Source of the DNA: Methanoregulaceae archaeon
GTDB taxonomy: Bacteria; Armatimonadota; Fimbriimonadia; Fimbriimonadales; Fimbriimonadaceae
Length of the DNA: 64,000 nucleotides
Reading direction: 5' to 3'
NCBI GenBank assembly: GCA_020850325.1
Contig: JADZEW010000024.1
Coordinates: 1 to 64,000 of the forward strand
In this document: positions 2,380-50,341 of the stretch, piece after piece
Layout of the letters: every line of letters begins with the position of its first letter
Position numbering within the stretch: the first letter of the stretch is position 1
Made by a program: the position numbers and the translations under genes
Notes under the pieces: model-generated
Databases searched by the model: none
What the model saw: only the letters and a program-made list of their open reading frames with translations
What the model was told of the DNA's origin: nothing

Positions 2380-3243
2380 TTACTCTTGCGGGAGTGGGCA
2401 GTCGCCATCGCTGGCCGCCCAACCCGAGTCGAAGCAGCTCAGACCGGTATCCCAATACGGGTCCGGGGCTCCGACCCACTGGGCCGCCTTTTCTGCGTAG
2501 CCTCGGAACATCGTGCCGATCTTCTTACCGTCGGTAAAGCGTCGGCCGTTCATGGCAGACCACTTGACGTGGCCGTCGACAAACGCCCAGTTCGCGCCTT
2601 CGCTGAACGAGTACGCGACTTCGCCGCAGCAGCTCGAAGGATCGTCGCTCGGCAAATCATCGCGTCGCGAGTTGTTGAGCTCGATGCCGTAGAACCACTC
2701 TTCGTTGGTCCAGGCATTTGCGCCAAGAGCAGGATTCGTTCGCTGGCGCTTCTCGCCAAAGGAGACCGTTCCTGCTGGAGCGGGGACGCCGCTACCGCTG
2801 ATCGCGCCCTTGCCAATGAACGTGCCCCAGTGGCCGGGTCGAACCTGAACGCCGGTGAAGACATTGCTGGCAAGCGCGTAGCTTCGGCGGCCCATTCCGA
2901 ATGGCGTGCTGAACTTCGCGCGGGTGTCGGTCGGCGAGGTCCAGAGCTGATAGCTCTTGGTGTACGGCTGAACGAGCTTGTCGAAGCTCATCGCGACTTC
3001 GGGATCTGCGCCACCCTGCGCCGGGCCAAAGCCCACACGCACCTTGGTGCCGAAGTTATCGTCGAAGTCGGCCTGGTACATGATCGAGGAGAGGTTCAGC
3101 TGCTTCATGTTGCTGAGCGACACGATCTTTTTGGCCGCGACCTTTGCCTGGGCAAAGACAGGGAAGAGGATCGCCGCCAAAATGGCGATGATCGCGATGA
3201 CGACAAGCAGTTCAATGAGCGTAAAGCCCCTGCGATTTTTCAT
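2380..3243 (-). CDS. type II/IV prepilin-like protein (DUF1559 type)
   Basis: Protein of 287 residues with a class III prepilin leader: basic MKNRRG, cleavage expected after Gly6, then FTLIELLVV with Glu at mature position 5 and a long hydrophobic helix. The C-terminal part has [11 protein letters not shown], the H-x-DG-like segment common in DUF1559 pseudopilins of Planctomycetes and Armatimonadota. Such proteins assemble into short pseudopili or serve at the cell surface after processing by prepilin peptidase. The start is firm: GAGGAG lies seven bases upstream and the ATG overlaps the amylase stop as ATGA. Being in a carbohydrate-degradation operon is unusual; a link to export or anchoring of the amylase is inference. 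Confidence 0.9.
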
Positions 3244-5381
3244 GGATGTCTCCTCAAGGATGCGTTTCGAGTGAAATCGTTCGTAGCCGAGGCGCGATGA
3301 GCGTCGCGGACAGTACGGTTCGTGCCCCGCGACGCCGGCAATAACACGGCGGCGCTCCTCGGGGTAAGCGTGACGACGAGTTGGGCTCCAGCTCGGCGCA
3401 CCGTTGCGCCGCCCAGAGCATCTTCGAACGCGCTCGGTATCTTGAGCTGGCTCAAGGGTCCGAGCGGAATCGAAACCGTATGTGCCTGGTCCGATCGATT
3501 GACCGCAATCAGAGCGAGATCGGAGCCCTCGACGCGGCCGTAAGCTACGGTCCGCCGGGCATCGTCGGCCAGGAGCTGGATCGGCTCACCGGTGCGCAGC
3601 GCCGGGCTTTGGGCGCGGAGTTTCATGAGCAACCGGTAGTGCTTCAGGAAGGGGTTTTCGCCGGACAGTCGAATCCACTCCATTCCCCGGCGGTTGTCGG
3701 GATCAGCGGCGCCCTCCATGCCAAGCTCTTCGCCGTAGTAGATGCTCGGCGAGCCTGGCCAAGTCATTTGAACCGTTGCTCCAAGCAGAGCCAGTTCGCG
3801 ATCGCCCTTGCACAGCGTGAGGAATCGCGGGGTGTCGTGGCTGCTCAACAGGTTCATCAGGTTGCGAGAGACCTGCGGGGGATAGCTTTCGTAGACCCGC
3901 AGCAGTGCGTCGATGAACTGCGTTGCCGTGGTGTTGCCCTCGGCGATGAACTTGAGGGCAGCATCGCGGAACTGGTAGCCCATGGCGGAATCCCACTGGT
4001 CGCCGCGGAGCCACTGGCGAGCATCGCCCCAGACTTCGCCGACGATCCACTGCTCCGAAGAAAGACCTTTGACCGTCTTGCGGAAGTCTCGCCAGAAGTC
4101 CATCTCGACTTCGTTGGCGACGTCGAGCCGCCAGCCGTCGATCCCCGCTTCGTGATGCCAGAAGTGGGTGACGTCCAGCATGTACTTGCGGGCCTCGGCG
4201 TTGCGCAGGTTCACCTTGGGCATCGAAGGGAAGCCGAACCACGCCTCGTAGTTGGGCGGGTCGCCGACCTTGATCGGGAATGACCGAGGGAAGAACCAAT
4301 CACGGTACTTTGACTCTGCTCCGCGGTCGCGAAGGTCAGTGAAGGCAAAGAAGTCGGTGGCGGTGTGGTTGAACACGCCATCGAGGACCACGCGGACTCC
4401 CTTGGGCTTGAGTTCTTGAACCAGGGCGCGGAGATCGTCATTGGTGCCCATCCGTTTGGCGACCTTGAGGTAGTCCGTGGTTTCGTAGCCATGGTTCGAT
4501 GGACCCTCGAAGATCGGGTTTAGGTAAATGCCCTGCACGCCGAGGTCGACGATGTGCCCGGCGCGCTTGCGAATGCCCGCGATGTCGCCGCCCATGAAGT
4601 TGAACCACTCCGGCTTACCGCCCCACGCTACCGAGTTGGCGGGATCGTTGGAGGGGTCTCCATTCTCGAAGCGCTCGGGGAAAATCTGATAGAAGACCGC
4701 GCCCTCCGCCCAGGTTGGAATCTCGAACGGCTTGAAGTCTTTGGCTGAGATGCGGAACGTGCCGCCATCCAGCCCCTTCGAGCCGTACGTGAATGCCCGC
4801 CGGTCCTGCAGGTTGAATACGTATTCAAGATCAGACTTACCGTCCCACTTCACCCGCGCTCGGTAGTAGTCATAAAGGTCGTCCGAACTGGTTCGCGACA
4901 TCGCGGTGTTCGAACTTCTCACCCGAACGGATACTCGCTCGACGTCATCTTTGCGGGTTCGGAACTGAAGCGTCAGGTGCCCGCGATCCCAATACATCGC
5001 CGTATCCGCGGCCTCGTGCTGAAGCCCCGACAGCGTGATCGAACCATCGCCGCGTACCGCCGGAGCTGAGTAATCGGAGGGAAGCAGGGTCAGAAACGAG
5101 TTGATATTGCCGTTGCCGTCATCGCGGTTGTCCTTCGACTTCGGATCGACGATCCATTGCTCGCCGTCAAGAACGAACTTGTACTGGTGTTGCCCAACGC
5201 CCAAGCCGACCTTGGTTCGCCAAGTGCGCCCGTCGGCATCGGCTCGCATCGGGTTGGCGTTTCGATCCCAGTTGTTGAAGCTCCCCGCCACCGCAACCGA
5301 CTTTCTCGGCTGGTCCGCCACGTAGACGAACTCGTGGGTGATGGTCTGCGTCACCGACACCATGGCAAGGGCCAGCAGCAT
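3240..5381 (-). CDS. secreted GH13 alpha-amylase/cyclomaltodextrinase-like enzyme with N-terminal glucan-binding module
   Basis: Glycoside hydrolase of 713 residues. A short hydrophobic leader ([10 protein letters not shown]) is followed by a CBM48/E-set module (about residues 14-85, with [12 protein letters not shown] and [12 protein letters not shown]), a linker domain, and a GH13 barrel. The four conserved regions are present: [16 protein letters not shown] with the Asp nucleophile; VGEVWGD with the acid/base Glu; LLSSHDTPR with the stabilising Asp. The subfamily looks closest to neopullulanase/cyclomaltodextrinase, attacking alpha-1,4-glucans. The start at 5381 overlaps the lacI stop as TAATG, with GGAGG just upstream, so longer versions are rejected. 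The gene ends in an ATGA overlap with the prepilin. It contains an internal operator-like palindrome at 4813-4828. Confidence 0.93.
4813..4828. promoter_or_regulatory. intragenic LacI-type operator candidate
   Basis: TTGAATACGTATTCAA is a perfect 16-bp palindrome inside the amylase gene (codons for EYVFN). Its core equals the operator at the lacI promoter (TGAATACGTATTCA) and has the central CG typical of LacI-family sites. It could be an auxiliary operator for looping or a roadblock. Confidence 0.55.
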
Positions 5382-6403
5382 TAGAGGTCCCTCCGGGTGG
5401 TCGAGCCGCGGACGCAAAGCTCGGTCGGGATGATCATCCGGCGCGGTCCGTAGATCGGCTTTTCCTCGATGATCTTCAGCAACCGGCCGCAGGCGGTGCG
5501 CACGATCTGCGGAATATTCAGGCTGACCGAGGTCAATCCTCGCTCAAAGAGGTCACAGAGGCTGGAGTCGTTAAAGCTCGCCACTCCCAAGTCTTCGGGG
5601 ATGAAGAGACCCTGCCCGCGGGCGGCGAGCACGACGCCCATCGCCATGAAGTCGTCGAGTACCAGCAGGGCGTCGGGGCGAGAGGGACTCCGCAGAATGT
5701 CCGAAGCCGTATCGCGGGCGGCGATGAAACCGAAGTCGCAGTGCCAAACCAGGTCATCGCAGTCGCTGCCAGACATGCCCTGGCGATAGCCTTCGATTCG
5801 ATCGTCGGAAACGGTGATGCCTTTCGGGCCCGCGAGAAGTCCGACGCGTTGGTAACCCGCCTCACGCAGGTGCTCGGTTGCGGTCTTGGCGGCAAGAACG
5901 TTGTCGTTGTCGACGCTCCAAATCGTGCTTTCTCGTTCTTCGACCGGGTTGCCAATCAGGACGAACGGAAATCCCTCGGCTTGGAGGCGCAGAATGCGCT
6001 CATCGCGAGCTTCGCTCTCGACGAGAATCAGCCCATCCACTCGGCGGGTGCGGAGCAGTTCGTCGTAAACCGCTTCTTGGCTCGATGCCGACGACACCAT
6101 CTCGACGCACAGGTGGTACGGCCTGCCCGCCAGGAAGTCCATGATGTGGGAGATCAGATTCGCGAAGAAGGGATCGTCGTTCAATCCGCCTGGCGGGCGC
6201 TTGACGACGAGCCCGATGAGACCAGTGCGCTTGCTGCGAAGCGAACGCGCCCGAACGTCGATCTGGTAGTTGGTCTCGGAGATGACCGCCAGGACGCGGT
6301 CCTTGATGTCGGTTTCGACGCGGGCATCACCCGACAAGACCCGGCTCACCGTCGCTTGCGAGACGTTGGCCAATCTTGCGATATCCTGCTGCGTCACCCT
6401 CAT
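5381..6403 (-). CDS. LacI-family transcriptional regulator
   Basis: Protein of 340 residues. The N-terminal helix-turn-helix and hinge read VTQQDIARLANVSQATVSRVLSG, followed by a periplasmic-binding-protein-type effector domain (about residues 60-335, with GLIGLVVKRP and DALLVLDDFMAMGV). It binds an operator as a dimer and is expected to respond to a sugar. The start at 6403 matches the usual LacI-family N-terminus and has GGAA five bases upstream; the GTG at 6427 would lie within an operator half-site and is less likely. The gene is coupled to the amylase by TAATG, which suggests a maltodextrin or similar ligand, by inference. The operator at 6434-6449 suggests autoregulation. Confidence 0.93.
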   Translation of the reverse strand: MRVTQQDIARLANVSQATVSRVLSGDARVETDIKDRVLAVISETNYQIDVRARSLRSKRTGLIGLVVKRPPGGLNDDPFFANLISHIMDFLAGRPYHLCVEMVSSASSQEAVYDELLRTRRVDGLILVESEARDERILRLQAEGFPFVLIGNPVEERESTIWSVDNDNVLAAKTATEHLREAGYQRVGLLAGPKGITVSDDRIEGYRQGMSGSDCDDLVWHCDFGFIAARDTASDILRSPSRPDALLVLDDFMAMGVVLAARGQGLFIPEDLGVASFNDSSLCDLFERGLTSVSLNIPQIVRTACGRLLKIIEEKPIYGPRRMIIPTELCVRGSTTRRDL

Positions 6404-6420
6404 TGGCGTTCCGAGAATCG

Positions 6421-6449
6421 TATTCACAACCGCGTGAATACGTATTCAC
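6421..6449. promoter_or_regulatory. LacI-type operator at the lacI-amylase promoter
   Basis: GTGAATACGTATTCAC at 6434-6449 is a perfect 16-bp palindrome. A further inverted half-site (TATTCAC at 6421-6427, pairing with GTGAATA at 6434-6440) lies beside it. The array sits directly downstream of the -10 box, over the likely transcription start, the classic position for repression. Confidence 0.8.
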
Positions 6450-12118: not shown

Positions 12119-12856
12119 TTAAGGCCGTCGCCGCAGGATCAGCGTTAGCTGAGCATCGACCTTGGGCGGAGTCAACCCGGCCATCAGCATCACCGTGAAC
12201 GGGAAGCTCCGCGAGAGCGTGATCTGAGTCGCGTCCTTGTCGATCGGCCCCGTGAAGCTGAACCACTCCTTGGGCTGATTCAGCTTATGGATGATCTGGA
12301 ATCCTAGGTCGAGCTTGTCTTGAACGATTGGCTTGAGGCTGGTCCACGCCTTCGGCCCTTCGATGAACTCACGCTGGAAGAACGACCGGGTTGGAGCCTC
12401 GACGCGAGGGGCTTCCCACGTGTATCGACCCAACTCCCGGTCGATTTGAAGTGTTGGCCATCCCAGATGCCCTTGTCCAATCGTCTCGCCCCCTGCCGGG
12501 TCGGGGCAGGTCAGCCGGGTGGTATCGCGCCGAATCTCCTTCGGGCTAAAGAGCGGCCCGCGTTCGACGATCTCGTCGCGGACGCGAATCGTGAAGGGCA
12601 CGGTACCCGACCCGATCCACGATTCGTAGCGCTGCGTGTTGTTGCGGTCAGGCGAGAGGACGACGACCGCGCCCTCGATCCTTCGATCGAGGATGATCTT
12701 GCCGCGTGCTTCCCGATCGATCTTCCACCGCGCCGTCGAAGGACCCTTCTTGATCGAACCTTCGCCTCGGATCGTCATCACAAACTCGCCCTCCCAACCG
12801 GTGTGCTGGGGAGCTGTTGGTCCAAGAAGGAGGATCGCCGCAATAAAGGGACTCAT
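12119..12856 (-). CDS. secreted protein of unknown function
   Basis: Protein of 245 residues with a hydrophobic leader (SPFIAAILLLGPTAPQ) and then mostly beta-type sequence (WEGEFVMTIRGEGSI, GSGTVPFTIRVRDEIVERGPLF, ATQITLSRSFPFTVMLMAGLTPPKVDAQLTL). No catalytic motif was recognised. Its -10 box TAGAAT overlaps the stop codon of the symporter gene and lies six bases before the ATG, so it could be transcribed independently as a leaderless mRNA. It may equally be part of the symporter operon, whose stop is nine bases away. Confidence 0.7.
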   Translation of the reverse strand: MSPFIAAILLLGPTAPQHTGWEGEFVMTIRGEGSIKKGPSTARWKIDREARGKIILDRRIEGAVVVLSPDRNNTQRYESWIGSGTVPFTIRVRDEIVERGPLFSPKEIRRDTTRLTCPDPAGGETIGQGHLGWPTLQIDRELGRYTWEAPRVEAPTRSFFQREFIEGPKAWTSLKPIVQDKLDLGFQIIHKLNQPKEWFSFTGPIDKDATQITLSRSFPFTVMLMAGLTPPKVDAQLTLILRRRP

Positions 12857-12865
12857 GCTGCGATT

Positions 12866-14296
12866 CTACTGATGGACCGGCCGGCCACGCCCAGCAATCT
12901 CCCCGATTCCCACCACGAGGAGGCTCGCGGCCAGGCTCGGTAACAGCGTGCCGATGCTGAACGACTGGCCAGCCCATTCCACTAGCAGAAACGGGTTGCC
13001 GATCCTGACCCCATAAGCCAGCAACCCACCCCCGACGAACGCGCCGGCGAGCAGGGAAGCGAGCATCCAACCCGAAGTAAGCCTCGACTTCCACAGCCGG
13101 TCGTAGGCCAAGAGCGTGGGAATGAGCAGCGAGCCCACCGTCAAGCCCCCCCAGCTGTACCAAAGGTCCTTCACGCTGGGGATCGCCAGCCCCAGCAGGT
13201 ACGCGACTAGGCCGCCGATTGCGATGCCGATGCGCACCCTCAACATCGTCTTCGCGTCGTCCCGCCCGTCCGACCACAGATCGCGCCCGAGCGTCGATCC
13301 GCTGACGAGCGCATAGCCAACGAGCGCGGAGACGATCGTGCCCGTCATCCCGCACAGGAACAGCGCCTTGAGCCCATCAGGAAGGACTTGATTTCCAAAC
13401 AAGGGGTAGATCGCGACCAAGTTCCCAGGCACCTCGGTGAGCATCGCCATCGCGTACACGCCGGTGCCGATCGAGAGCAGGTCGAACACCATCCAGCAGA
13501 AGATCGAGACGATAAGCCCGCGACGCGCGACATCGACCGATCCCGCGCTCGCCACGCGCTGGTGGAATCCGGGGTCGATCAGCGTCCATGCGCCCAATAG
13601 GAAGAAGCTGAGGATCGAAATCGGGCCCTGGCCCCCCGTGAAGGTCTGCATCTCGGGAGAAGGCAGCTTGGCAACCGCCTCGCCCCAAGACATCTGGGTG
13701 AGGCAGTAGATGAGGATCGCTCCGAACCCCGCATACATGGCCACGAACGACAGCACCGATACCCGCACGTCGGCGAGCAGTCCGCCTTTCATCAAGAACG
13801 ACAGCCCGAACAGCAGGCCGACCGCGAGGCTGATCGGCCACGTCCACCCGGTCAGCACCTGCACCAGCGTGCCCAGCATGACGACGTGGGCCGAGGGTGC
13901 GCCGAGCGCGAACAGCAGCCCCGCGCCGGCGCGGGCGACTCCGTTGCCGTAACGCAACCGCAAGCGCTCGGGGATCGAAATCTGGTCCGACTCCCGCACC
14001 CGGCCGGCGAGCCGCCACACATAGATCGCGGCGAACACGTAGTAGGGAAGTCCGAGGAGCAGCCACGTGCCAAGGCCGAAGTAGCTCACCGACTCGCCCA
14101 TGCCGAGGATGCCGCCGTACCAGGTGCAAACGAGCGTGGCGACGAACATCGGGAGGGTCAGTGCCCGCCCGGCGGCGATGAATCCCACCGCGTCTTGGCT
14201 CCGCAACCTCGCCGACAGCCCCAGGCCAAACAACGCGGCGAGAAACACGCCGACGATGGCCAGGTCGAGCGGTGCGAGTTGAACCACGCCTACCAT
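12866..14296 (-). CDS. sodium/solute symporter family transporter
   Basis: Polytopic membrane protein of 476 residues with about 12-13 hydrophobic helices. The N-terminal pattern (AIVGVFLAALFGLGLSARLRSQDAVGFIAAGRALTLPMF) and the later SYFGLGTWLLLGLPYYVFAAIYV, IPERLRLRYGN and ALFLCGMTGTIVSALVGYALVSGS are typical of SSS (solute:sodium symporter) proteins, which import sugars, amino acids or other solutes with Na+. Substrate cannot be read from sequence. The GTG/ATG region at the start has no clear ribosome site. The gene is followed by the secreted unknown protein. Confidence 0.85.
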   Translation of the reverse strand: MVGVVQLAPLDLAIVGVFLAALFGLGLSARLRSQDAVGFIAAGRALTLPMFVATLVCTWYGGILGMGESVSYFGLGTWLLLGLPYYVFAAIYVWRLAGRVRESDQISIPERLRLRYGNGVARAGAGLLFALGAPSAHVVMLGTLVQVLTGWTWPISLAVGLLFGLSFLMKGGLLADVRVSVLSFVAMYAGFGAILIYCLTQMSWGEAVAKLPSPEMQTFTGGQGPISILSFFLLGAWTLIDPGFHQRVASAGSVDVARRGLIVSIFCWMVFDLLSIGTGVYAMAMLTEVPGNLVAIYPLFGNQVLPDGLKALFLCGMTGTIVSALVGYALVSGSTLGRDLWSDGRDDAKTMLRVRIGIAIGGLVAYLLGLAIPSVKDLWYSWGGLTVGSLLIPTLLAYDRLWKSRLTSGWMLASLLAGAFVGGGLLAYGVRIGNPFLLVEWAGQSFSIGTLLPSLAASLLVVGIGEIAGRGRPVHQ

Positions 14297-14368
14297 TGTG
14301 AGCGATGGGACATGCAGAGATCTCCGCGCGCCTCGTGATCCTTCAAACTCAGATTGTCCTGGAACCCT

Positions 14369-15265
14369 TCAGAACTCCATCCCGTCCGCGATGCTCTGCA
14401 GGAATCCCTCGGCCGCTTCTTCCTCGTCCGGCATCTCCGCCGAACCCACCACCGTCCACGTCTCGCGCAACGAAGCGTAGTCGCCTGACGCAACCGTCTC
14501 TAGCAGCCCTAGCGACTCCACTTCCAGCATGTCGTGGCGCGTGAAGGTCTCGAAGTTGCAGCCGTAGTCGGGGTATCGACCCCCATCCACGGCGCCGAAC
14601 CGCTTCATGAACAGATCATCGCCCAGCGCATACGCCGCCCAGCCCTGGCGCACAAACGCCCCCACCTTTTGCGGACCGCGATCAGGATCGTGGCGTAGAC
14701 GCACCAGGCGTCGCCCCCACGTCCACCGTGGGTCGCTCATTTCCGTATAAGACCACAGCACCAGCGGCCGCACGGGCAAGAAGTTCTCACTGTGGGCCTC
14801 GAAGGGCTCCTGCGGGAAAATGCACTCGCCGCCCGGGGCCATGACGGTCAGCGCCCACGGGGCCAACTCAAAACCGATCTCGCCGAGGTTGTGGATGCGT
14901 TGCTCCAGTTCAAATCCCTCGCCATCGGCAGGGCGGATTCGCAACTCGCGCTGCAGTCCGTGCGGGTCGGCTGCTGATCGGAGCGACAGCCATCCCCCTT
15001 CTTCTAGCACCTCGACGGGTTCGTTCTCCGGGAAGTAGGTCACCTCTTTGGACTCCGGTGCGATCCAAAGTCGATGTCCGCCGTAGCTGCGATATCCGTC
15101 GCCGCCCTTAAGCCCGCGCTGCTCGGCAGACTCGTGCAGAAGGTTCGGGCCGCCGGCGCGGCTGAGCTTAACGATCCGGGGGCCGACGTCCAGGGTGATG
15201 AGCGCTTCCAAGTCGCCCGAAGTCAAGCGTGCGCAATCCCATCCGTTCCAGTGGGTCACTTCCAT
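14369..15265 (-). CDS. DUF4380-like protein (galactose-mutarotase-like fold)
   Basis: Protein of 298 residues. GDLEALITLDVGPRIVKLSRAGGPNLL and YGGHRLWIAPESKEVTYFPENEPVEV resemble DUF4380 and aldose-1-epimerase-like beta-sandwich proteins, where GGHRLW contributes to the sugar site. WALTVMAPGGECIFPQEPF and RRLVRLRHDP further support this. No signal peptide is present with the start at 15265, so it is probably cytoplasmic and may bind or process a sugar. A longer version beginning at 15349 would overlap the hairpin after the M28 gene and is less likely. TATCTT precedes the start by nine bases. Confidence 0.7.
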   Translation of the reverse strand: MEVTHWNGWDCARLTSGDLEALITLDVGPRIVKLSRAGGPNLLHESAEQRGLKGGDGYRSYGGHRLWIAPESKEVTYFPENEPVEVLEEGGWLSLRSAADPHGLQRELRIRPADGEGFELEQRIHNLGEIGFELAPWALTVMAPGGECIFPQEPFEAHSENFLPVRPLVLWSYTEMSDPRWTWGRRLVRLRHDPDRGPQKVGAFVRQGWAAYALGDDLFMKRFGAVDGGRYPDYGCNFETFTRHDMLEVESLGLLETVASGDYASLRETWTVVGSAEMPDEEEAAEGFLQSIADGMEF

Positions 15266-44096: not shown

Positions 44097-44888
44097 ATGC
44101 GTCTACGTGCATTCACCCTAATCGAACTGCTCGTCGTGATCGCGATTATCGCGATCCTCGCCGCGATCCTCTTCCCGGTCTTCGCTCAGGCCAAGACCGC
44201 CGCGAAGAAGACGTCGAGCCTCAGCAACAGCCGTCAGATCGGAACCGCCCTCAACCTCTATCTGAACGACTACGACGACACCACTCCGGCGTTGTACTAC
44301 TACGACCCCAACAACCAAAGCCTGCCGACCACGCAAGGGTTTTATTACTGGCCCACGCTTCTCTTGCCCTACACCAAGAGCGAGGAAATCTTCATCTGTC
44401 CGGCGGACAGAGCCGAGGACCCCGTCCTGACCGACAGCCAGGGACGCGGTCGCTTCGACAAGGCTAACGAGCTCTACTACTACATCTTGGGAGCGAACCC
44501 AAGCTACGGCTACAACTTCCGCTACCTGAACATCACGGTCAACTCGCCGGACCCGAACGGCGGCAATCCCACCCCGTTCCACTACATCGGCATGTCCACG
44601 TCGGCGATCGGCTCGACCGCGACCACCGTCGCCTATGCGGAAGCCACGATGAAAGACCGCGCTCGACCCGGCGGAGGCACCATCACCACGACGATCGGCT
44701 ATGCCCGTGTCGAGCCTCCGTCACGCTGGTATGGCGCCCCAGGAACGGCGACCGCTCAGGGTCAGCTGTGGCCCCGCTTCAGCAAGAAGCTGGTCAACGT
44801 CGGCTGGCTCGACTCGCACGTGAAGGCGACGTCGATCGACCAGTTGGCCACCCCTGCGGATCGCTTCTGGAACGGCCTCGACCAGTAA
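44097..44888 (+). CDS. type II/IV prepilin-like protein (DUF1559 type)
   Basis: Protein of 263 residues. The leader MRLRA is followed by [20 protein letters not shown], with Glu at mature position 5. Position -1 is Ala instead of the usual Gly; prepilin peptidases tolerate this in some proteins. [15 protein letters not shown] near the end replaces the common DGH segment. A middle domain rich in Tyr and Asn ([20 protein letters not shown]) is typical of this large family. The gene stands alone, with a strong hairpin downstream. Role: minor pilin or pseudopilin at the envelope. Confidence 0.88.
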
Positions 44889-48510: not shown

Positions 48511-48539
48511 GTAGCCGCGGGATGCACTCGTGCCCGCGC
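48511..48539 (+). repeat. REP-like hairpin, family 1
   Basis: GTAG, then CGCGGG/CCCGCG around the 11-nt loop ATGCACTCGTG. Same head and stem as at 47693 but a different loop centre. Confidence 0.7.
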
Positions 48540-48607
48540 TAACTGCCGCAACATCTCAGAAGTCCAGTTCGAACAGCCACCCACCCCGCAAAACTACTAG
48601 ATATCGA

Positions 48608-48645
48608 GAATACGTATTCCAGATTCAATGAAGTTGCTGTAAGAT
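48608..48645 (+). promoter_or_regulatory. LacI-type operator over the promoter of the glucan-binding-like PEP-CTERM gene
   Basis: GAATACGTATTC (48608-48619) equals the 12-bp core of the lacI operator at 6434. It overlaps TTCCAG (48617-48622), a possible -35 spaced 17 bp from TAAGAT (48640-48645). Binding here would block or modify transcription of the gene at 48699. Confidence 0.7.
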
Positions 48646-48698
48646 ACAACCTAGAGCCGCTGGACATGTGGGTTCGCGGACCTCGAGGAAGGCTTACG

Positions 48699-49382
48699 AT
48701 GAAGAAGTTACTGATCATCTCGATGGCGCTCGGCATTGCCGCCGGAGCAAACGCACAGTTCGTCATTCGAGGCACATTCAACGACTGGGGCAACCTGGGC
48801 GACATCGCCATGTCCGACATGGGTGGCGGCCATTGGCAGGGCACCGTCACCGGCCTCACCGCGGGCGATCGCCATGAGTTCAAGGTGACGACAAACGACT
48901 GGGGCAACAACGGACCGGGCAACAACGCCAGGGTTATGGTTGGCAGCAGCGGCCAGATGCTGGTGAACTTCTGGGAGAACGCCGCCGCCGATGGCTGGCT
49001 GCCGAACTCGGGCAAGCGGGTTGGCTACACCAACGACGATGCCCACGGCTGGGACGTCATGGGCAGCTTCAACGGCTGGGCCTCGCCCGTTCTCGACTTA
49101 GTGCACATGGGCAACGGCCTCTACGAGGGCACTGTCGCCTTGACGGCGGGGAACCACGAGTACAAGTATCGGAAGGCGGGAGATTGGGATATCTCGATCA
49201 ACAACGACTTCTCGGGTAGCGGCGACAACATTTTCTATACGGTTGCCACCGACGGACTCTACAAGTTCTCGCTCGACCTTCCCAACGGCCGTCACAACCT
49301 GGCCGCCGTGCCTGAGCCTGCGACGATGGCCATCCTCGGCCTCGGTGTCGCTGCTCTAGCGCGACGTCGGCGAAGGGCCTGA
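48699..49382 (+). CDS. PEP-CTERM protein with two starch/glycogen-binding-like modules
   Basis: Protein of 227 residues: signal peptide (KKLLIISMALGIAAGANAQ), then two E-set modules resembling CBM20/CBM48-type domains: FVIRGTFNDWGNLGDIAMSDMGGG..WQGTVTGLTAGDRHEFKVT (about 20-100) and GWDVMGSFNGWASPVLDLVHMGNGLYEGTVALTAGNHEYKYRKAGDW (about 110-195), quoted as separate segments; each has the F-N-x-W pattern that contacts glucan in AMPK-type modules. The end, VPEPATMAILGLGVAALARRRR, is a sorting signal. GAGGAAGG precedes the ATG. With the operator upstream it may bind alpha-glucans at the cell surface alongside the amylase at 3240. This role is inference. Confidence 0.85.
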   Translation: MKKLLIISMALGIAAGANAQFVIRGTFNDWGNLGDIAMSDMGGGHWQGTVTGLTAGDRHEFKVTTNDWGNNGPGNNARVMVGSSGQMLVNFWENAAADGWLPNSGKRVGYTNDDAHGWDVMGSFNGWASPVLDLVHMGNGLYEGTVALTAGNHEYKYRKAGDWDISINNDFSGSGDNIFYTVATDGLYKFSLDLPNGRHNLAAVPEPATMAILGLGVAALARRRRRA

Positions 49383-49410
49383 AGTTTCGGAAGCGCCCTT
49401 CAGAGATCGC

Positions 49411-49441
49411 CCGCCCGCGACATGTGAGCGGGCGGTCTTTC
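49411..49441 (+). terminator. terminator of the glucan-binding-like PEP-CTERM gene
   Basis: CCGCCCGC and GCGGGCGG pair (8 bp, 9-nt loop) and are followed by TCTTTCTGTTT. Confidence 0.85.
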
Positions 49442-49621
49442 TGTTTGGGACCCGCCTTCGGCAGAATCGCCGCAATCTTTACCTGGTGAAGATACTAGAC
49501 TTTCCCTTCGGAGTCGTGGATGGGGTGGCAATTGCACTACACTAACGGTGGTCGAAGAATGCTTCGATCGAACTCAATGACTTGGGCAAGTTGTTTGCTC
49601 TAGGGTTGGGAGGAGAACAGT

Positions 49622-50341
49622 ATGAAGAAACTCGCGATCATCTCTGCATTTTCGGTTCTGGGAGCCATGGCCAGTGCCCAACTCTCCGGCAATCTTTACT
49701 TGGCTCAGGCGAACGACGCTGGTGGCAACTTTGTCAGCCAGGAGTTCGGCGACTTCCCGACCTATTCGACCGGCATCGGCAATGTCGTGACGTTCGGCAG
49801 CGCCGTCAATCTGACCGACGTTCAGGTTCGCATGACCGAAGCGCTTACGGCCACCTGGATTTCGGGTGGAGTCAACCAAGCTCGCCTGACGATCTCGCAG
49901 TTCTCGGGCACGCCTTCCATTAACCACACGTTTGGTGCCGCCAGCGTCGGTGGCGACATCGCCTACTCGGCCATCGTCAATGCGTCGATCACCAACGTGA
50001 CGGCCAAGGTCTTCAACTTCGTTGGTGACGCGACCGGGGTTACTAATCTCGCGGCCGGCACGTATCTCGTGTCGCTGACCGGCATTGCCGACTTCGGCGT
50101 CCGCGGTCAGTCGTTCCAGCAGGCTTCGCTCGCGCAAGCCTCGGATAGCTGGGCCCGCAACCCGGGTGGTGGCTTCGTGCTCCCGATTGGTACGAACTGG
50201 GGCATGCTGAGTGCTGCTACGACTGGCACGTTCCGCGAAGCCAGCATGGGCATCAACGGCACGGCCGTTCCTGAGCCCGCGACGATGGCCATTCTTGGCC
50301 TCGGCGTGGCTGCTCTCGCTCGCCGACGCGCTCGCAAGTAA
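49622..50341 (+). CDS. PEP-CTERM sorting domain protein
   Basis: Protein of 239 residues with a signal peptide (KKLAIISAFSVLGAMASAQ), a beta-rich ectodomain of unknown type (VTFGSAVNLTDVQVRMTEALTATW, AKVFNFVGDATGVTNLAAGTYLVSL; separate segments) and the C-terminal VPEPATMAILGLGVAALARRRA segment. Signal and sorting regions are nearly identical to those of the preceding gene, suggesting duplication of the ends or shared constraints. GGGAGGAG precedes the ATG. No operator is seen upstream. It ends 21 bp before a large hairpin. Confidence 0.88.
   Translation: MKKLAIISAFSVLGAMASAQLSGNLYLAQANDAGGNFVSQEFGDFPTYSTGIGNVVTFGSAVNLTDVQVRMTEALTATWISGGVNQARLTISQFSGTPSINHTFGAASVGGDIAYSAIVNASITNVTAKVFNFVGDATGVTNLAAGTYLVSLTGIADFGVRGQSFQQASLAQASDSWARNPGGGFVLPIGTNWGMLSAATTGTFREASMGINGTAVPEPATMAILGLGVAALARRRARK

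Follow-up and report, generated by a model that had tools for sequence, protein, structure and literature searches.

Starch is bound at the cell surface of Bacteroides thetaiotaomicron by SusE and SusF, lipoproteins of Bacteroidetes with tandem X25 modules that are encoded together with SusC and SusD and co-regulated with an amylase. A tandem X25 pair also serves as starch-binding unit in the amylosome of Ruminococcus bromii, where the single starch site of Sca5 and of Sas20 is formed jointly by a pair of X25 modules with tryptophan platforms, four tryptophans in all (PMC9112005). MalR/MdxR-type regulons (Ravcheev et al. 2014) are governed by an autoregulated LacI-family protein with an amylase and an ABC importer among its targets, and their operators are even palindromes with a central CG (PMC4052901). 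A second operator can even be located inside a regulated coding sequence, as is the case for lac O2. Armatimonadota are little studied and, to our knowledge, almost no regulatory data exist for them; a literature search found neither the operator sequence described below nor such a regulon in Armatimonadota.

Based on a 64,000-nucleotide stretch of DNA (the window), the remainder of its genome and related genomes, we consider it probable that Fimbriimonadaceae-type Armatimonadota possess a MalR-like LacI regulon that includes a SusE/SusF-like, exosortase-sorted starch-binding surface protein; here binding, repression, the inducer, glucan binding and the location of the protein are inferred. 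The three exact copies of the palindrome GAATACGTATTC reported in an earlier note on this DNA, i.e. at 4815-4826, 6436-6447 and 48608-48619, were recovered by a pattern scan of the window, which gave no fourth match even when two mismatches were allowed. Moreover, the link drawn there between the palindrome and glucan genes was borne out genome-wide: the same kind of scan found only four copies in 3.52 Mb (41 contigs), all sitting at the LacI gene, in the LacI operon, at the PEP-CTERM gene or at a sugar ABC transporter gene, and the reversed control gave no match in the genome. The elements concerned are as follows.

6435..6448, no strand: operator TGAATACGTATTCA 5' of the LacI gene and the LacI-amylase operon
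6415..6425, no strand: operator-like element GAATCGTATTC at the start of LacI, a degenerate second site that lacks one base
5381..6427, minus strand: LacI-family regulator (P0002), listed start GTG, probable start ATG 6403
3240..5417, minus strand: secreted CBM48 + GH13 amylase/neopullulanase-like enzyme, probable start ATG 5381, downstream in the LacI operon
4814..4827, no strand: perfect operator sequence within the amylase gene (exact match), genus-specific
48607..48620, no strand: operator AGAATACGTATTCC 5' of the tandem-X25 PEP-CTERM gene, core 48608-48619
G000:C11, L020:13936-16389 and 12197-14491: fused transporter gene and second permease-like gene

The LacI protein comprises an N-terminal HTH (PF00356, 9.8e-15) and a periplasmic-binding-protein-like sensor (PF13377, 1.9e-27; both Pfam). 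Its gene heads the LacI-amylase operon and the 6436 copy lies just 5' of it, constituting an even palindrome with a central CG at the regulator's own promoter; the GAATCGTATTC element at the LacI start is also present in the sister species. The copy at 4815 is part of the amylase coding sequence (codons E-Y-V-F in ...DLEYVFNL...) and not of a promoter. The operator consensus is about YGW-GAATACGTATTC-WCR, and the flanks of the 48608 site (AG...CC) are weaker than those of the LacI site. The near-sites CGAATACGTACTCA (C7:6086) and CGAATACGTCTTCA (C35:123893) were set aside, both being intragenic and in genes without evident glucan link. Prepilin-like proteins are encoded at 2380-3243 and 44097-44888 of the window, one of them directly after the amylase gene.

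The fourth genomic copy is located outside the window on another contig (C11:31922), 33 bp 5' of the sugar ABC transporter gene, and is an independent match at the expected kind of gene. This gene codes for 817 aa, a family-1 sugar-binding protein fused to an ABC permease, and is followed by the second permease-like gene; the same binding-protein/permease fusion is found behind an operator at 14 family loci.

Within the family the exact site occurs in 115 copies in 53 of 85 genomes, with no match of the reversed control in any of the 85, whereas outside the family only two of 28 genomes of the same class contain it. LacI orthologues (49-98% identity) are present in 65 family genomes, 49 of which carry the exact site, as compared to four of the 20 genomes without an orthologue (Fisher p 1.4e-5). 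A GAATWCGWATTC-like site is found 5' of all 30 LacI orthologues inspected, and the order LacI-amylase is kept at 25 of the 30 LacI loci. For 88 of 96 distinct sites (92%) a gene starts within 200 bp downstream and 65 of the 96 (68%) are intergenic, the respective values for random positions drawn from the same stretches being 33% and 9%. Additionally, several relatives have a TATAAT-like sequence that the operator overlaps or borders. Two genomes show peculiarities at the level of the regulator: G005 has three promoter-type operators at glucan genes (L100, L101, L102) while no LacI orthologue was found, possibly owing to an assembly gap, and G007 contains two close LacI copies about 5 kb apart (C1:2413448-2414461 and 2419810-2420814).

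Clustering of the genes that follow the family's other sites, those not at LacI, yields, as enzyme targets, GH13 with CBM48, DUF3417 glucan phosphorylase, GH31, GH15/65-like and distant GH13-like proteins and, as further targets, the fused transporter gene, MFS transporters, tandem X25 proteins and two PEP-CTERM families without known domain, A4 (L107, L111, L113 and others) and A5 (L165, L127, L130 and others). In several genera the operator is immediately followed by genes of A4 and A5, and in PDB and Pfam searches only their dockerin or PEP-CTERM tails were matched; both families are likely candidates for glucan-binding surface proteins. Judged from gene content, the targets together are best read as a MalR-type regulon for the use of alpha-glucans.

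The gene behind the 48608 copy probably starts at ATG 48699 with the ribosome site AGGAAGG, which puts the end of the operator 79 bp upstream of the start. Its product contains the following parts.

48699..49382, plus strand: predicted PEP-CTERM surface protein of 227 aa with tandem X25/CBM48-like modules; the signal peptide, judged by eye, takes up about residues 1-20
48759..49034, plus strand: first X25/CBM48-like module, about residues 21-112, with FNDW, FKV and NDW
49035..49307, plus strand: second X25/CBM48-like module, about residues 113-203, with FNGW, YKY, GDW and N177
49308..49379, plus strand: PEP-CTERM sorting signal VPEPATMAILGLGVAALARRRRRA (PF07589, 6e-8, Pfam)

The earlier note had recognised two starch/glycogen-binding-like modules in this protein, and domain searches and the model agree with this reading. 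The second module matches X25 (PF22058, 1.3e-9) and AMPK1_CBM (PF16561, 1.8e-6), both above the Pfam cut-off; the first, which was also modelled, gives weak Pfam matches to CBM53/CBM_56 and matches to the CBM48 of branching enzymes. A profile of the homologues picks up CBM48 modules in LSF1, in branching enzymes and in AMPK beta, and W127, K156 and W163 are kept in alignment A1, where they are aligned with W, K and W of the LSF1 CBM48; we take them to be the equivalent of the W100/K126/W133 set of AMPK beta. In an AlphaFold model built from 8 sequences (mean pLDDT 80, pTM 0.75) the best Foldseek matches are 7rpy, i.e. X25-2 of Sca5 from R. bromii (1.4e-5), and SusF (4fe9, 3.5e-4), with the SusE structures 4fch and 4fem also among the best. 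Fits of single modules, with a comparison that covers mainly residues 115-205, give VIA Z values of 10.7 for the pullulanase X25 (2wan), 9.9 for Amy703 (8jn0) and 8.9 for SusE, whereas alignments of the whole model to Sca5 and SusF result in an rmsd of about 9-11 Å, so that only single modules fit well and the arrangement of the two modules relative to each other is unsure. The spacing of W30, W68, W127 and W163 appears comparable to that in Sca5/Sas20. Taken together, sequence and model identify a tandem X25/CBM48 protein that would be expected to bind glucan.

PEP-CTERM proteins are numerous and their function is mostly not established. The 48699 protein combines the features of an exosortase substrate, i.e. 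signal peptide, PEP motif, hydrophobic stretch (the hydrophobic tail is modelled as helix 206-226) and basic tail, and the genome encodes two exosortases. The adjacent PEP-CTERM protein (window 49622-50341) has a 21-residue tail, VPEPATMAILGLGVAALARRR, that is identical to that of the 48699 protein; it is without operator and kept in the sister species. No dockerin or cohesin was found in the 48699 protein, but in homologues from G036, G037, G069 and G070 (L187, L188, L184, L190) a dockerin-like tail replaces the PEP-CTERM signal, and a dockerin-like repeat also ends the A4 members L134, L140, L154 and L164. The tails of homologues under the same operator appear to be interchangeable between dockerin-like repeat and PEP-CTERM.

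The X25 part of the 48699 protein is matched by 13 proteins of the family, and 12 of these have an operator-like site (at most 3 mismatches in 14) within 260 bp upstream, as compared to about 1% for shuffled sequence; the homologue of G069 has no such site nearby. In G017 and G024 the LacI sites carry the variant GAATTCGTATTC/GAATACGAATTC, which is also found at the 48699-type gene. In G033, G034 and G035 this gene and one for a GH31 alpha-glucosidase are transcribed divergently from either side of a single operator, and in G033 and G035 LacI is encoded near the pair. Homologues from Phycisphaerae and other Planctomycetota, reached by a scan of genome contigs with a 5-row protein profile, lack the operator site and serve as negative control for the operator linkage. 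According to the earlier note the 48608 copy lies over the -35 of the gene. This could not be confirmed, as a scan for σ70 promoters and terminators around 48608 scored nothing and only TTCCAG-17-TAAGAT is readable by eye, so that repression by overlap is a presumption at this promoter. That the amylase operon and the PEP-CTERM gene belong to one regulon, as that note proposed, is strongly supported by comparative genomics, namely by the rarity of the site, its promoter position, its co-occurrence with LacI, the conserved targets and the 12 of 13 homologues with a site.

In the sister species G057, whose LacI is 98% identical, a block of about 950 bp is absent (window about 48530-49477 versus L208:898-1183). 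This block holds just the operator and the 48699 gene, which thus seem to be a self-contained unit that was gained or lost recently, and the partnership with the rest of the regulon cannot be essential. The Planctomycetota homologues (L217, L220, L221, L222, L224; including Phycisphaerae) show 42-51% identity over the alignment, about as much as those from other Armatimonadota genera, and have PEP-CTERM-type tails. In a tree of the X25 proteins the rows of Armatimonadota and Planctomycetota interleave weakly, with 3-4 label changes in bootstrap trees. As the well-supported branches are compatible with a single origin, a transfer of the gene between the phyla is only suggested by these sequences.

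We propose the following scheme. GAATACGTATTC would be the operator of the MalR-like LacI-family protein encoded at 5381-6427 in Fimbriimonadaceae-type Armatimonadota. If no inducer is present, a LacI dimer would occupy the operators at its own promoter and at those of the ABC transporter and the 48699 gene and block transcription. Binding of maltodextrin or another alpha-glucoside may then release LacI, allowing production of the secreted CBM48-GH13 starch-cutting enzyme, the ABC importer and the SusE/SusF-like tandem X25 protein. The latter would be exported via its signal peptide, sorted to the cell surface by an exosortase via PEP-CTERM, and may finally keep starch or long maltodextrins near the secreted enzyme.

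Other explanations have to be weighed against this scheme. The 48608 match might be a chance palindrome, since a lone 12-mer match is weak evidence and the gene is missing from the sister species. We reject this, its probability being negligible, on the basis of the rarity in the genome, the family footprint and the promoter position, and because the site is conserved at 12 of 13 homologues from several genera, with variants that match the lineage. Hardly more credible is the idea that the palindrome is bound by another LacI paralogue and that its closeness to the gene at 5381-6427 reflects cross-regulation: the genome does encode seven loose LacI-like candidates, but there is only one close LacI, the site precedes all of its inspected orthologues, and it is rare where LacI is missing. 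LacI may also activate some of the targets, as LacI-family activators of maltodextrin genes are reported from Enterococcus faecium (PMC3737153), or the 4815 copy may be an auxiliary operator that loops to the 6436 copy like lac O2. In favour of the latter, the 4815 copy is a perfect 14-mer, and 1.6 kb separate it from the 6436 copy at the promoter of this operon. However, the intragenic site is absent outside the genus and in a comparison of two species its codons are not more conserved than the rest of the gene, with no special synonymous conservation, and many sites of relatives overlap TATAAT-like sequences or start regions, as repression would predict. All in all, we regard activation or looping as a minor but real possibility.

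A different question is what the surface protein holds. The regulon may be real, but the X25 PEP-CTERM protein may tie the cell's own glycogen-like or another exopolysaccharide into a matrix instead of capturing food starch. This would be in line with the general link of PEP-CTERM proteins to exopolysaccharide and biofilm genes (PMC1569441) and with the glucan phosphorylase in the regulon of relatives, an enzyme that acts on storage glucan. Yet a gene that is co-regulated with both a secreted amylase and a sugar importer, and that has divergent GH31 genes as neighbours, is better explained by nutrient capture than by a matrix role, and the fold relatives SusE/SusF and Sca5/Sas20 bind nutrients (PMC9112005), making a matrix protein rather improbable. 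On the side of starch capture one may go further and speculate, tentatively and with more doubt than conviction, that Fimbriimonadaceae-type Armatimonadota have a SusCD-independent starch-adherence system of their own, in which one LacI operator would control the mutually unrelated tandem X25, A4 and A5 surface proteins and the lineage-dependent tail, PEP-CTERM or dockerin-like, would direct one and the same starch-binding head to exosortase sorting or to a cohesin scaffold.

By analogy, the system may work like SusE/SusF or the amylosome X25 units under MalR-type LacI control. In common with SusE/SusF it has the tandem X25 modules and, as predictions, surface starch binding and co-regulation with an amylase; in contrast to them the 48699 protein carries a PEP-CTERM tail, consists of two modules, is under LacI-type control and belongs to scattered loci. 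It is not a Sus system: the genome is without SusD, as SusD_RagB (PF07980) gave no match while the same search was positive in a Bacteroides control. The earlier note's description of a system lacking SusCD parts therefore stands for SusD, although the protein itself resembles the Sus parts SusE and SusF. The amylosome is similar in its tandem X25 pair with Trp platforms and in the dockerin-like tail of some Armatimonadota homologues, but differs from the 48699 protein, where PEP-CTERM takes the place of dockerin or cohesin. The MalR/MdxR-type regulons share the LacI protein, its autoregulation and the amylase and ABC importer targets, whereas here exosortase-sorted surface proteins are among the predicted targets. 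The 4815 copy, at most a putative auxiliary operator, resembles lac O2 in its location within a regulated coding sequence, yet it is 1.6 kb away and genus-specific. Taken together, regulation and domains as well as fold and phylogenetic footprint all point to the same predicted role for a PEP-CTERM protein, surface starch capture. These results not only provide Armatimonadota with a predicted operator, regulator and regulon and point to A4 and A5 as likely glucan binders, but would add an exosortase-anchored version to the ways of holding starch represented by SusE/SusF and the amylosome.
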